From assembly GCF_016906305.1 (NCBI RefSeq), contig NZ_JADDOL010000002.1:124001-188000 (forward strand): a stretch of 64,000 bases of DNA, given 5' to 3'. Made by a program: the position numbers and the translations under genes. Below are positions 1-38,700 of the stretch, piece after piece; position 1 is the stretch's first letter; each line of letters begins with the position of its first letter. Origin of the DNA: Alloalcanivorax marinus (GTDB lineage Bacteria; Pseudomonadota; Gammaproteobacteria; Pseudomonadales; Alcanivoracaceae). The notes beneath the pieces are model-generated. The model ran no database searches, was not told the DNA's origin, and saw only the letters and a program-made list of their open reading frames with translations.

Positions 1-2003
1 GCTGCCTATGCGGCAGCAAACCCGGGGCCTCAACAGTTACGCTATTGCATATTTTTCTTAGCTGCCTATGCGGCAGCAAACCAGAGCCAACCCCAGGCGG
101 GCTAACCGCCAGCTTTCTTAGCTGCCTATGCGGCAGCAAACGGTGTCCCGGTCAACGACGACGAGGAGTGCGATTTCTTAGCTGCCTATGCGGCAGCAAA
201 CGCTGCTCGCGCAGGATCCCTACCGGGCCCGCTTTTCTTAGCTGCCTATGCGGCAGCAAACCGCTCAACGCGGATGGCAGCCCGGGCGTCCCATTTCTTA
301 GCTGCCTATGCGGCAGCAAACTCCTGGTCCTCGAACAGGAACTCTTCGATGCCTTTCTTAGCTGCCTATGCGGCAGCAAACGGCGCTCATGGGCATTGAT
401 TGTGAGTGTGCCCTTTCTTAGCTGCCTATGCGGCAGCAAACACGGACTGGTAACGGATTCCGAGCGCGTCGGCTTTCTTAGCTGCCTATGCGGCAGCAAA
501 CTCCAGGAGACCATGACGGCGGTGGCTGAGATTTTTCTTAGCTGCCTATGCGGCAGCAAACGTGGACCCCACCACGGGCGCCGGCGTGGCGGTGTTTCTT
601 AGCTGCCTATGCGGCAGCAAACTGGGCTGGGTCCGGCACGATCACGGCGCCCACTTTCTTAGCTGCCTATGCGGCAGCAAACCGCACCTCCGCCTCCGGC
701 TCCGCGCTCCGCTTTTTCTTAGCTGCCTATGCGGCAGCAAACATGGTGGTGTTATCGTACCCCGCGAACAAAGGTTTCTTAGCTGCCTATGCGGCAGCAA
801 ACGTGCGGGTGCCGTTGCGCAGCTCGACCACGCTTTTCTTAGCTGCCTATGCGGCAGCAAACGGCTATGACTGGACGCCGCTGCACTATCGGCTTTTCTT
901 AGCTGCCTATGCGGCAGCAAACTTCAGCGCCGTATGCTCGGCGCCCTCGTCGTCTTTCTTAGCTGCCTATGCGGCAGCAAACATTGCGGCGACCACGGCG
1001 AGAACGACGGCGTATTTCTTAGCTGCCTATGCGGCAGCAAACATCTTCCAGTGCGCCCAGGTCGGGCATGTGGTTTTCTTAGCTGCCTATGCGGCAGCAA
1101 ACTGCAGGATTCCGCGCCCGTTCCTAAGGATGATTTTCTTAGCTGCCTATGCGGCAGCAAACCGCCACCAGTGCATCGTGGTCGAGCGCGTGGATTTCTT
1201 AGCTGCCTATGCGGCAGCAAACGGGGTTATTCGTCAGGTCCTTTGCCAGTGCTGTTTCTTAGCTGCCTATGCGGCAGCAAACACAACCGCCACTCTGGCC
1301 GCCAAGTTCCCGCTTTTCTTAGCTGCCTATGCGGCAGCAAACGCGACTTGGCGCTATCTGTGCCGTATCTCGATTTTCTTAGCTGCCTATGCGGCAGCAA
1401 ACGCCCGGGCCGATCCGGCACTGATCCAGCCAGATTTCTTAGCTGCCTATGCGGCAGCAAACACACTCACTGAATCCTCACGGAGTGGCCGACATTTCTT
1501 AGCTGCCTATGCGGCAGCAAACAATCTGATGGCGCGCATCCGTACGATTAAACCTTTCTTAGCTGCCTATGCGGCAGCAAACGTCGTAGCCCTCTGCTGT
1601 CTCCGCCGGCCAGTCTTTCTTAGCTGCCTATGCGGCAGCAAACTGGCGGCGCAGGAATGAGATCGACTCGGGCCTTTTCTTAGCTGCCTATGCGGCAGCA
1701 AACAACGGTTTTGACGACCTGCCGCACTTTGAGCTTTTCTTAGCTGCCTATGCGGCAGCAAACGAAACGGGCTTCCATGTCGTCGTAGTCCTCGTTTTCT
1801 TAGCTGCCTATGCGGCAGCAAACTCGGAGTAGACCCGATTTTCCGCGCGCCACGATTTCTTAGCTGCCTATGCGGCAGCAAACGCGCGGAGCTTCTTGTG
1901 GACGCCGCCGCTGGATTTCTTAGCTGCCTATGCGGCAGCAAACTCGTTCGGCCTGGGCCCGGGCTTCTTCCTTGCTTTCTTAGCTGCCTATGCGGCAGCA
2001 AAC
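1..2003 (-). CRISPR. Type I-F CRISPR array, 34 repeats / 33 spacers, incomplete at left edge
   Basis: A 28-bp unit (TTTCTTAGCTGCC at one end, GCGGCAGCAAAC at the other) recurs every 60 bp from the left edge to 2003. The first copy lacks its first 7 bases because of the window edge; the other 33 are identical. Spacers are 32 nt except two of 33 nt (562-594 and 1583-1615). Read on the minus strand the repeat begins GTTTGCTGCC, folds CTGCC/GGCAG around a 5-nt loop and ends CTAAGAAA, the 8-nt 5' crRNA handle of type I-F (Csy/Cas6f) systems. Transcription is therefore leftward and the newest spacers lie near 2003. The canonical I-F repeat starts GTTCACTGCC, so this is a variant. No repeat decay appears, so the distal end lies beyond the window. 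Confidence 0.97.
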
Positions 2004-2160
2004 TAGAACGCCCCGATCATAACTCTTTGAAATATATTCCATAAGTCGCCCATCACAGCGAATCACCCTTTGTTGAGACAGCCTTTTAACTCATTGATAT
2101 TAAATAACTTCTTTTTGTCTTATAAAAAAGGGTTCCCAAGAAGAGATCGATGAAGCGGCC
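2004..2160 (-). promoter_or_regulatory. CRISPR leader
   Basis: This AT-rich stretch abuts the last perfect repeat at the end where the minus-strand crRNA orientation places the leader. It stands out against the GC-rich surroundings. It should hold the pre-crRNA promoter and the signals for spacer integration. It includes a perfect IHF consensus site. No open reading frame of note lies in it. The remainder of the gap to the next gene (about 2161-2243) shows nothing recognisable before a terminator. Confidence 0.8.
2087..2099 (-). promoter_or_regulatory. IHF-binding site in CRISPR leader
   Basis: On the minus strand TATCAATGAGTTA matches WATCAANNNNTTR at every defined position. It lies about 85 bp from the leader-repeat junction. 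IHF bends the leader to guide Cas1-Cas2 integration in type I-E and I-F systems, so site and place fit. Binding here is inferred. Confidence 0.6.
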
Positions 2161-2243
2161 TAATCGCACATAACACGGCGAATCGCGACACAGCACCCCT
2201 GGAGTTAGGCGTCACTTCAGCAAGAAGCGCTTGGCCGGGGACG

Positions 2244-32341: not shown

Positions 32342-33697
32342 TCAAACGCCGGCCACTTTCATCGGGGCCAGCAAAAGGGAGCCGGAGGCAATGTTGCCGC
32401 GACGGTCCACATTGGTCCCGCTCCCCTGAATGCCGGCAAACATGTCCCCCAGATTTCCGGCAATGGTAAACTCTTGAAGCGGCTTCTGTATGACACCGTT
32501 CTCAATCCAGAAACCGGCGGCGCCCCGCGAATAATCCCCGGTCACCAGATTGACGCCCTGCCCCATCACCTCGGTGACCAGCACGCCGGTGCCCAGGCGC
32601 CGGATCAGCGCCGCCTCGTCCTCGCCGGTGTCGGTGATGGACAGATTACGCACGCCGCCGCCGTTGCCGGTGGGCGCCATCTCCAGACGCCGGGCCGCGT
32701 ACAGGCCCAGCGCGTAACGCTTGAGCACGCCGTCCTCCACGAACGCCTGGGCGCGGGTGGGCAGGCCGTCCGCGTCGAACCCGGCGGAGCCGTTGCCGCC
32801 CACCTGCAGCGGGTCCTCACGAATGTCGATGCCGGCGGGAAAGAGACGCTCGCCGAGCCGGTCGCGCAGGAAGGAAGCGCGCCGGTACAGGGTGCCGCCG
32901 CTGATCGCCGACACGAAATGCGCCAGCAGAGTGGCGGCGATTTCCGGCGACAGCAGCACCGGCCACTGGCCGGTGGCCGGCACCTCGGCGCCCAGCCGCG
33001 CCAGGGTGCGGCGGCGCGCTTCCTCGCCCACCTGCTCCGGCCCGGCCATGCGGTCGGCCTGGCGGTTGCCGTCGTACCAGTAGTTGCGCTGCATGCCGTT
33101 GGCGTCCTCCGCCACCACCGCGCAGCTGCGCGAATGGAAGGTGCCGGCGTGGCCCTGCAAAAAGCCGGCGCTGGTGCCCAGCACCTGCACGCTGACGCCG
33201 GTGCTCACCGACGCCCCTTCAGAATTGACGATGCGGGCATCGTCCCGGGCCACGTTTTCACAGCGCAGTGCTTCCTCGATGGCCTGTTCGGTGGTCAGCG
33301 CCCAGGGATGGTACAGCCCCAACTCCGGCTCCGGGCCGGCCAGCTGATCCGGTTCGGCGAGCCCGGCGAAGGGGTCCTCCTCGGTGTGGCGGGCGATGGC
33401 GCAGGCGGCGGCCACCGCGTCGCGCAGGCTTTCCGGGCTGTCGTCGGAGGTGCTGGCGTGGCCCTTGCGCTGGCCGAAGAACACGGTCACGCCCAGGCCG
33501 CGGTCGCGGTGGAACTCCACCGTCTCCACCTCGCCCAGGCGCACGTCCACGGACAGGCCCTGGGCCAGATTCAGGCGCGCTTCGGCGGCGCTGGCGCCCT
33601 GCCGTTTGGCTTCCTCGAGCACGCGGGCGACGACGTCGCGGGCGGCGGCGAGGGAATGAGGACCGAGATCAACTGTCGCGCTGGCGTTTTCGGACAT
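32342..33697 (-). CDS. pmbA: Metalloprotease subunit PmbA (TldE)
   Basis: Subunit of the TldD/TldE (PmbA) protease that unfolds and degrades peptides, including microcin B17 precursor and CcdA in E. coli. It is 451 aa. Family motifs include VFFGQRKGHASTSD, NSEGASVSTG, LGLYAARRLEMAPTGNGGG and GYGxxxTGDYSRGAAGFWIENG-type sequence. TldE lacks the metal-binding histidines carried by TldD. Its partner tldD is 13 kb away in this window. Divergent from darP with only 31 bp between starts. Confidence 0.94.
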   Translation of the reverse strand: MSENASATVDLGPHSLAAARDVVARVLEEAKRQGASAAEARLNLAQGLSVDVRLGEVETVEFHRDRGLGVTVFFGQRKGHASTSDDSPESLRDAVAAACAIARHTEEDPFAGLAEPDQLAGPEPELGLYHPWALTTEQAIEEALRCENVARDDARIVNSEGASVSTGVSVQVLGTSAGFLQGHAGTFHSRSCAVVAEDANGMQRNYWYDGNRQADRMAGPEQVGEEARRRTLARLGAEVPATGQWPVLLSPEIAATLLAHFVSAISGGTLYRRASFLRDRLGERLFPAGIDIREDPLQVGGNGSAGFDADGLPTRAQAFVEDGVLKRYALGLYAARRLEMAPTGNGGGVRNLSITDTGEDEAALIRRLGTGVLVTEVMGQGVNLVTGDYSRGAAGFWIENGVIQKPLQEFTIAGNLGDMFAGIQGSGTNVDRRGNIASGSLLLAPMKVAGV

Positions 33698-33728: not shown

Positions 33729-34268
33729 ATGACCGAGTATAACGATCCCCTGCCGAGCAAGACACGCCGCAAACTGGAAATGCAGGAACTGCAGGAGGTG
33801 GGCCTGGAGCTGATGGCGCTCAAGGCCGGCCAGCAGGCGCGTCTGCCCCTCAATGACCCGCTGCGCGCGGCCCTGGAGGAAGCGCGCCGCATCCAGCATC
33901 CGGACGCGCGCCGCCGCCACGCGCTGTACGTGGGCCGGCTGATCAGCGATTCCGACCCGGACACGCTGCTGGCCGCCCTGGCCGCGCTCACCGACCCGGT
34001 GCGCCAGCAACGGCTGCAGCAATGGACCGAGCAGGTACTGGCCTGCGAGGGCCCCCGCGACGCCGAGCCCATCGTGCAGCAGATTCTTCAGTACTATCCG
34101 GAGGGCGACCGCCAGGCGCTGCGCAATCAGGTGCGCAATCTGATCAAGGCGCGCCCGGCCGGCGAACTGCACGAAGCGGACGCGGAACAACGCGCCCGCC
34201 TGAAGCGCGAGCGCAAGCGCTTCGTGGGCCTGCTCAACGAGCTGGACAAGAACAGTCCGCTTTACTGA
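33729..34268 (+). CDS. darP: Ribosome biogenesis factor DarP (YjgA)
   Basis: A 179-aa YjgA/DarP protein that helps 50S subunit maturation. It is highly charged and helical, with the family motifs LPSKTRRKLEMQELQEVGLELMALK and RKRFVGLLNEL near the end. It is divergent from pmbA and overlaps the end of the convergent outer-membrane factor gene by 7 bp. Confidence 0.93.
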   Translation: MTEYNDPLPSKTRRKLEMQELQEVGLELMALKAGQQARLPLNDPLRAALEEARRIQHPDARRRHALYVGRLISDSDPDTLLAALAALTDPVRQQRLQQWTEQVLACEGPRDAEPIVQQILQYYPEGDRQALRNQVRNLIKARPAGELHEADAEQRARLKRERKRFVGLLNELDKNSPLY

Positions 34269-35746: not shown

Positions 35747-38700
35747 GGGGCGGCATTCACGGTGTCGGAGGAACCGGCGCGGCGCAGGGACCACTGCCGC
35801 AGCCGTTCCAGATACAGGTAGACCACCGGCGTGGTGTACAGCGTCAACAACTGGCTGAAGGCCAGTCCGCCGATGATGGTGATGCCCAGCGGGCGACGCA
35901 ACTCCGAGCCTTCCGCCAGCCCCAGCACCAGCGGCACGGCGCCGAGCAGGCCGGCCAGGTTGGTCATCAGGATCGGGCGCAGGCGCAGCAGCGCCGCCTG
36001 GCGGATCGCCGCCGGCGGCGCCAGCCCCTGGCGGCGCTGGGCGGCCAGGGCGAAGTCGATCATCAGAATGGCGTTCTTCATCACGATACCGATCAGCAGG
36101 AACAGACCGAGCAGCGCGATCAGGCTGAATGGCGTGCCGCTGAAGCGCAACGCCAGCAGCGCGCCGACCCCCGCCGAGGGCAGCGTGGACAGAATGGTCA
36201 GCGGATGCAGGGTGCTTTCATACAGCACGCCGAGCACCAGATAGACCGCCACCAGCACCGCCAGAATCAGCATCGGCTGGCTCAGTTCGCCGGTCAGCTT
36301 GGGCCCGCTGTCCTCCGGGGCCACGTGCACCTCGGTGGGCAGCATCACCCGGTTGAGCATGGCGTCGATGGCGGCCTGGGCCTCGGACAGCACCACCCCC
36401 GGCGCCAGCGCGTAGCCGATGCCCTGGGAGGCGAACTGGCCCTCGTGGCGGATGCGGTCCGGCGCCATGCCGTACCGCCAGGTGGCGAAGGTGGACAGCG
36501 GCACCCGCTGGCCGTCGTCGGTGAGCACCTGCAGCTGGGCCAGCACCGAGGGGTCGGCGGTGTAGCGCGGGTCCAGCTCCATCACCACCCGGTACTGGTT
36601 CAGCTCGTCGTAGAGGGTGGCCACCTGGCGCTGGGAAAACGAATTGTTGAGCACCGAGGCCACCGTTTGCATGTCCACGCCGTAGCGGCGCGCCACCTCC
36701 CGGTCGATGTCCAGGGTGATCTGCCGGGTTTCCTCGTTGCCGGCGTCGTCCACGTCGGTGAGCTCCGGCAGTTGCTGCATGGCGGTGGCCACCTTGCGGC
36801 CCCAGGTGTCCAGGGCTTCCAGGGAATCGGAACGCAGGATCAGTTCGTGCTCGCTGCGGCTGAACGGGCTGGACAGCATGATGTCCTGGTCCACCATCAG
36901 GAACAGGAAACCGCCGGGCACCGGCGGCGCCGTGGCGCGCAGCCGGTCCACCACCTGCTGCGCGGACACGCCCCGTTCCGCCCGTGGCTTGAGGCGGATG
37001 GTGAGCTGGGCGTTGGTCAGGCCCCGGTCGCCGCCGGAGGTGCCGGTGACGTCCGCCACCGCCGGATCGTCCAGGATCTGTTGCCGGAACGCCTCGATCT
37101 TGGGCTGCATCACCTGGAACGAGAAGCCGTCGTCGCCGCGCACGAAGCCGCGGATCTGCCCGGTGTCCTGCTGCGGCAAGGTGGTCTTGGGAATCGCCAC
37201 GTACAAATACAGGTTGCCGCCGATCACCGCCGCCAGCACCAGCATCGTCAGCACGCCATGGCGCAACGCCCAGTCCAGGCTGGTGGCGTAGGCGTCGCGC
37301 AGATCGTCGAACAGGGCGGCGCTGCGCCGCGCCAGCCGTCCCGGCGCCCGGCGGCTTTGATCGGTGAGCCAGCGCGCGCACAGGCTGGGCGTCAGGGTCA
37401 GCGACAGGGCCAGGGAAATCAGCATGGCCGCCGCCAGGGTCAGGGAAAATTCCCGGAACAGTTTTTCCACCACCCCGCCCATGAACAGGATGGAGACGAA
37501 CACCACCACCAGCGCCAGATTCATGGCCAGCAGCGTGAAACCCACCTCGCGGGCGCCGGTGATCGCCGCCTGCATCGGCGGCAGGCCCGCCTCGCGATGG
37601 CGCTGCACGTTCTCCAACACCACGATGGCGTCGTCCACCACCAGACCGGCGGCGACGATCAGCGCCATCAGCGACAGGTTGTTCAGGGAGAAGCCGTAGA
37701 AGTACATCACCGCGAAGGTGCCGATCAGCGACACCGGAATCGCCACCGACGGAATCAGCGCGGTGCGCACGCTGCCCAGGAACAGCCACACCACCAGCAC
37801 CACCAGCAGCACCGCGATCAGCAGGGTGGTCTGCGCCTCGCTCAACGAGGCGCGGATGCCCGGCGAGCGGTCCATCACCACGGTGAGCTGACTGTCCGCC
37901 GGCATCAGCGCGCGCAGCGCCGGCAGCTCCTGGCGAATGGCGTCGATGGTACTGACGATGTTGGCGCCGGGCTGGCGGCTGATTTCCACGATCACCGCCG
38001 GGCGCTGATTGTGGAAGCCGCTGGTGTAGCGGTTCTCCACCGAGTCGGTGACGGTGGCCACGTCGTCCAGCCGGGTGATGGCGCCGCCGTCGGCGCGCAG
38101 CACCAGGGGCCGGTACTCATCCGCCCGGTCCAGGGCCCGGCTCAGGGTCAGGTCCCAGTGGCGCTCGCCCTGCTCCACCGCGCCCAGGGGCTGCAGGGCG
38201 TTGGCGGCGCCGATGGCGTCGCTGACCTGATCCAGGGCGATGCCCCGGGACACCAGCGCGCCGGGATTGAGCTGCACCCGCACCGCCGGCAGCGAGGCGC
38301 CGTCCACCCGTACCTCGCCGACGCCGCGGATCTGCGCGATCTTCTGTGCCAGCACCGTGGAGGCGGCGTCGTAGAGTTGCGCCGGGGACAGATTCGGCGA
38401 ACTCAGCGCCAGCCCCATGATCGGCGCCTGGGACGGATTGATCTTGCGGTACTGGGGGTTGCCGGGCATGCCGGCGGGCAGCTGGCCGCGCACCGCGTTG
38501 ATGGCCGCCTGCACATCGCGGGCCGCCTCGTTCAGGTCCCGGTCCAGCTCGAAGATCAGGGCGATCTCGGTGGAGCCCTGGCCGCTGCGCGAGGAAATCG
38601 AGGTGACCCCGGAGATGCTGCCCAGGGAACGCTCCAGGGGCGTGGCCACGCTGGCGGCCATGTTCTCCGGGCTGGCGCCGGGCAGATTGGCGCTCACCGT

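Follow-up and report, generated by a model that had tools for sequence, protein, structure and literature searches.

A type I-F CRISPR spacer of Alloalcanivorax marinus matches the start of a phage replication-initiation gene

The closest described relatives of the locus considered here are the type I-F1 (Csy) systems of Pseudomonas, Pectobacterium and Aggregatibacter, in which cas1, cas2-3 and the cas8f-cas5f-cas7f-cas6f genes are flanked by two arrays of 28-nt repeats with a hairpin and of 32-nt spacers, and in which a 5'-CC PAM is used. In the literature the canonical I-F PAM is given as CC (PMC8482600), a C at -1 alone is described as sufficient in the Aggregatibacter system (PMC7296934), and primed uptake in Pectobacterium is described as drawing new spacers from near the priming protospacer, from the displaced strand and mostly 5' of it (PMC5059440). 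The locus of Alloalcanivorax marinus lies at the left end of, and to the left of, the 64,000-nucleotide stretch of DNA that was analysed (the window). It has the same repeat and spacer format, the same cas genes between two arrays and the same PAM, and we found no departure from type I-F1; a WYL-domain gene stands beside cas1. We see it as a case of ordinary bacterial CRISPR immunity and not of a novel kind. The initial annotation, made from the sequence, had proposed that one of its spacers spells the start of a phage gene, and our reading, to which we give a probability of about 0.93, is that this spacer (A1_29) is a type I-F spacer derived from a temperate tailed phage, namely from the 5' end of its replication-initiation gene. 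The relevant features of the window are these, with spacers numbered from 0 at the left end of an array, away from the presumed leader:

1-2003, minus strand: in-window part of array 1, with 33 CRISPR-DR4 matches (Rfam)
442-473, minus strand: spacer A1_11, 3 mismatches to the second phage contig discussed below (IMG/VR, record of L209), CC PAM
983-1014, minus strand: spacer A1_20, 2 mismatches to the same contig (locus L216), CC PAM
1043-1074, minus strand: spacer A1_21, sharing a core of 19 bases, in opposite orientation, with A2_5 of array 2; match in L206 with CC PAM
1463-1494, minus strand: spacer A1_28, older neighbour of A1_29, same phage gene with 2 mismatches, CC PAM
1523-1554, minus strand (crRNA sense): spacer A1_29, eighth counted from the leader end, CC PAM at an identical phage protospacer
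1583-1615, minus strand: spacer A1_30, newer neighbour of A1_29, 33 nt, phage site 4.5 kb away, CC in the 32-nt register
2004-2200, minus strand: probable leader of array 1, A+T 58% against 33% in the window, its right-hand limit being arbitrary

Array 1 spans C12:123754 to 126003, its right end being window position 2003; it extends 247 bases beyond the left edge of the window, where four of its spacers lie, and counts 38 repeats of 28 nt, all identical, and 37 spacers when the window and the flanking genome are taken together. Array 2, with 26 repeats and 25 spacers, lies left of the window at C12:112372-113899, and its repeat differs from that of array 1 at two positions, one end repeat being degenerate. 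Spacer length is 32 nt in 60 of the 62 spacers of both arrays and 33 nt in the other two (window positions 1583-1615, which is A1_30, and 562-594), and the repeat folds into a hairpin (-12.1 kcal/mol, z -2.64), so that the 28-nt repeat with a short stem-loop and the spacers of about 32 nt are those of type I-F1. The leader side of array 1 is probably the right one, judging by the crRNA strand and the A+T-rich flank; the two leaders have a common stretch of only 14 bases.

Between the arrays Cas6f, Cas7f, Cas5f, Cas8f, Cas2-3f and Cas1f are encoded as one block together with the WYL regulator, and all seven scanned proteins, the latter included, matched the expected families of the PADLOC profiles. 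The matches are near full-length (Cas8f, 4.8e-132; Cas5f, 1.9e-97; Cas7f, 5e-146; Cas6f, 3e-60; Cas1f, 1.4e-152), and that of Cas2-3f has an E-value of 0 over residues 31-1150 of 1154. The signature set of type I-F1, with cas8f, cas5f, cas7f, cas6f, the fused cas2-3 and cas1, is present in full, and by its gene content the locus qualifies as a complete type I-F system, as had been proposed at the outset. The gene of the WYL-domain protein (L149, 18461-19423, left of the window) adjoins cas1 before array 1, and a role as regulator of the CRISPR system is possible for it.

The preceding repeat ends at 1522 and the next one starts at 1555, so the coordinates of the 32-nt spacer A1_29 are exact. 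Its full sequence, read on the plus strand, is AATCTGATGGCGCGCATCCGTACGATTAAACC: six non-coding bases (AATCTG) precede an ATG, the codons from ATG to AAA encode MARIRTIK, and the closing CC is the first two bases of a Pro codon. The nine residues MARIRTIKP named by the initial annotation are thus correct, the last codon being incomplete within the spacer. A first scan of IMG/VR with the coding part only gave at least 120 MARIRTIKP stretches, and the fewest mismatches to A1_29 among the 120 genes listed were four. A second scan, with the upstream AATCTG required and the wobble bases left free, gave three stretches, one of which is identical to A1_29 in all 32 positions, the six bases before the ATG included. 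It is found on the contig IMGVR_UViG_3300045738_002462 (G046, 45,490 nt), where the protospacer covers the start of a gene that reads MARIRTIKPEFWADEDL (in fuller form MARIRTIKPEFWADEDLSALP) and is directly followed by GGAGTTCT, whose GG is CC on the crRNA side. The proposed phage match with its flanking bases was therefore obtained in the stated frame. No match of A1_29 beyond 18 of 32 bases was found among the 50,697 phage records of INPHARED, where the 18-base match occurs in three Vibrio phage records. More distant matches by DNA pattern came from Klebsiella pneumoniae ATCC 13883 (5 mismatches) and Pseudomonas fluorescens PS723 (7 mismatches), both without GG, and the string MARIRTIKP did not occur in the literature searched.

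The product of the target gene is predicted, by family match, to be a replication initiation protein, in line with the replication-type family that had been proposed for it. Its best match in PHROGs, a curated collection in which ten G046 proteins were scanned, is phrog_270 (replication initiation protein, 1.2e-39), followed by phrog_16167, phrog_1408 and phrog_2149 (replication initiation) and phrog_1701 (DnaD-like helicase loader), the E-values ranging from 1.2e-39 to 1.5e-20, and the MARIRTIKP start aligns to position 1 of several of these profiles. In a scan of nine G046 proteins against Pfam it had no family match at E 0.001. Other products of the contig match NinB, an S24-type repressor (phrog_4, 1.5e-44), an Erf-like annealing protein, an integrase (phrog_1, 1e-42), a major head protein (phrog_247, 5.9e-86) and a tape measure protein (8.2e-82). 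Because integrase, repressor, tape measure and head genes are present on one contig, G046 is most likely a temperate tailed phage, which agrees with the phage or prophage target foreseen, and it is likely to be a siphophage. G046 is linked to a presumed host through the spacers described here only.

A part of the earlier proposal concerned the PAM itself, and there the GG was indeed present after the protospacer, on the crRNA-sense side as CC, but it does not follow from the next codons of the gene. The CC of the Pro codon precedes its wobble base, and GG requires CCG with a following G; it was found in only 20 of the 120 MARIRTIKP genes listed, which rules out that the protein sequence forces it. 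The GG at the true target is evidence, yet it is not predictable from the protein. A wider survey comprised 180 loci fetched (1.58 Mb outside the own genome, overlapping copies included), with 32 nt taken per spacer; 13 of the 62 spacers had a match at no more than 4 mismatches and 49 had none. GG stood at the 3' side (window sense) of the best match in 11 of the 13, which is the 5'-CC PAM of type I-F1, and on the opposite flank in 1 of 13. Against the GG frequency of two G046 stretches (0.089) as background, the binomial P for 11 of 13 is about 2e-10, the 13 points being partly dependent: five come from one contig, and two of the GGs stand in conserved codons. These are the GG of A2_22, a Gly codon in 14 of 14 genes, and that of A2_11, an apparent Trp codon in 4 of 4 loci, both largely fixed by the conserved residue. 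The two best matches without GG belong to A1_9 and A2_7. The former comes from a Pseudomonas phage and has AC as its flank, with mismatches at positions 2, 3 and 9; the latter is a copy with 3 mismatches in the genome of a congener (L154, genome G018, contig C37), where the flank is GA, or 5'-TC on the crRNA side. The copy matched by A2_7 might still be a target, since in the Aggregatibacter system C at -1 alone sufficed (PMC7296934).

All 62 spacers were searched against the whole G046 record; five of the matches are full-length, and two further ones are short and at chance level. Besides A1_29, four spacers match, two of them in the same gene, and the CC PAM stands at all five protospacers, which are given here in crRNA sense:

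33353-33384, minus strand: A1_28, 2 mismatches, at positions 3 and 21 from the PAM, CC 5'
33424-33455, plus strand: A2_22, 3 mismatches, at positions 16, 22 and 24, CC 5'
33512-33543, plus strand: A1_29, 0 mismatches, CC 5'
33742-33773, plus strand: A2_19, 1 mismatch, at position 5, CC 5'
37875-37906, plus strand: A1_30, 1 mismatch over 32 nt, at position 11, CC 5'

The protospacers of A1_28, A2_22 and A1_29 fall within the gene at 32728-33537 or straddle its start, and that of A2_19 lies in the preceding gene, which has no PHROGs match. In the 33-nt spacer A1_30 the additional base, which adjoins the repeat, is mismatched to the target; a one-base slip into the PAM would give G, so a simple slip does not account for it.

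We infer that A1_29 came from the G046 lineage or from a near relative of it. It is quite conceivable, at odds not far below even, that the source was another phage, plasmid or prophage with the same replication module and that G046 is its mosaic relative. Four of the five protospacers fall within 421 bases (chance 2e-5 under uniform placement), as would be expected of one common module, and the cluster may reflect only such a module shared by G046 and the true source; three of the four other matches are imperfect, with 1 to 3 mismatches, which also suggests a relative, and a contig of a Proteobacteria MAG (L200) carries the gene start with 3 mismatches and a GG flank. Against this stand the match of A1_30, 4.5 kb beyond the cluster, and the complete identity of A1_29, and in either case the CRISPR system and the class of the target would be unchanged.

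Other phages have been sampled by the same arrays. A second phage contig, G047 (IMGVR_UViG_3300030106_008187), is matched by five spacers, A1_30, A2_17, A1_20, A1_11 and A2_11, and a 64% identical gene relates it to G046. On a third contig, G048 (record of L206), the matches of A2_5 and A1_21 overlap, each with GG, and these two spacers represent one phage site sampled twice independently. In a shuffled control for common spacer cores of at least 11 bases the maximum was 13 in 20 sets. The spacers A1_1 (left of the window) and A1_9 (window 322-353) have 13 bases in common on the same strand, which is possibly chance, because a core of 13 occurred once in the 20 shuffled sets. Matches of the 62 spacers were found in 79 INPHARED records; the useful ones among the matches listed (60 of the 79 records) are those of A2_11 in the ssb genes of F116-kind Pseudomonas phages and of A1_9 in Komp_PAO1_1.

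Returning to G046 as the source or a near relative of it, the order of the spacers may also be read as a history. The three array-1 spacers that match G046 are consecutive (chance of such placement 0.0045, for 3 among 37). A1_29 is directly preceded in age by A1_28, whose G046 protospacer is mismatched at position 3, which we take to be inside the seed. If A1_28 is regarded as the primer, a choice made post hoc, the four other protospacers all lie 5' of it on the displaced strand, at distances of 39, 127, 357 and 4490 bases. In both respects this resembles primed acquisition in Pectobacterium as presented in PMC5059440, where neighbouring spacers come from one phage and the first primed spacer comes from the displaced strand, 5' of the primer. 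Contrary to the rule given there, A1_30 does not follow from A1_29, because both protospacers are on the same strand, and the comparison is one of five points chosen afterwards. The arrangement plausibly fits primed acquisition. More tentatively, and with the odds leaning somewhat against it, both arrays could preserve legible traces of a single arms race, converging by primed uptake on one gene start. In this scenario a phage that had escaped A1_28 by mutation at position 3 of the seed would have provoked primed uptake; A1_29 would have been gained first, 127 bases off on the displaced strand, and A1_30 next. Array 2 would have drawn A2_19 and A2_22 out of the same replication region of 421 bases, and uptake by both arrays would thus converge on a gene start which the phage can hardly change.

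By analogy with known I-F biology, which is our ground for supposing transcription, processing by Cas6f and interference, the crRNA of A1_29 would direct the Csy complex to phage DNA beside the 5'-CC PAM, and the complex would recruit Cas2-3, with degradation of the phage DNA. That the array is instead a relic or has a regulatory use, without present immunity, we consider improbable: the cas set is complete with near full-length profile matches, all 38 repeats of array 1 are identical, and the own genome contains no targets at the sensitivity used, which is that of the A1_29 pattern and of the search with 32 of the 62 spacers. The degenerate pattern of A1_29, with one further mismatch allowed, was found in one of the 46 family genomes, where it is the own array only, and at the sensitivity of this pattern search A1_29 does not target its own genome. 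Under looser conditions 32 of the 62 spacers were compared with the own genome, and apart from the arrays themselves nothing close to a full-length match appeared. For the remaining 30 the only coverage came from the search of the family genomes, which scored few candidates and is not exhaustive, because at most 6 per genome were scored; its weak matches for A2_1, A2_4 and A2_15 (11 to 14 mismatches) and for A2_2 (6 mismatches) were discarded. No relative of the MARIRTIKP phage protein was found in the 46 family genomes by a search run without a positive control, nor among the 88 pattern matches of a protein scan of genome contigs.

Across 153 loci with 1.42 Mb in total, 41 matches at no more than 6 mismatches were obtained with the real spacers, mostly in related copies of two targets, a number that is not a rate because the loci were partly fetched by searching for the A1_29 sequence itself; in the same loci reversed spacers and three shuffled spacer sets gave none. 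The notion that a GC-rich spacer mimics MARIRTIKP by chance, with a GG expected from codon use, can draw on the 20 of 120 listed genes that have GG without CRISPR selection, and it is refuted, to a negligible residual probability, by the 32 of 32 identity that includes non-coding bases, by the four further spacers on G046 and by the empty controls.

Five spacers from two arrays tie an uncultivated phage contig without host label to a bacterial lineage, for whose family 46 genomes were analysed, and the PAM of the present system is fixed. The neighbouring spacers and the geometry of their protospacers offer a concrete natural case that fits primed acquisition. The start of a phage gene within a spacer can be recognised from raw sequence, the weak point of such recognition being the wobble base before the PAM.
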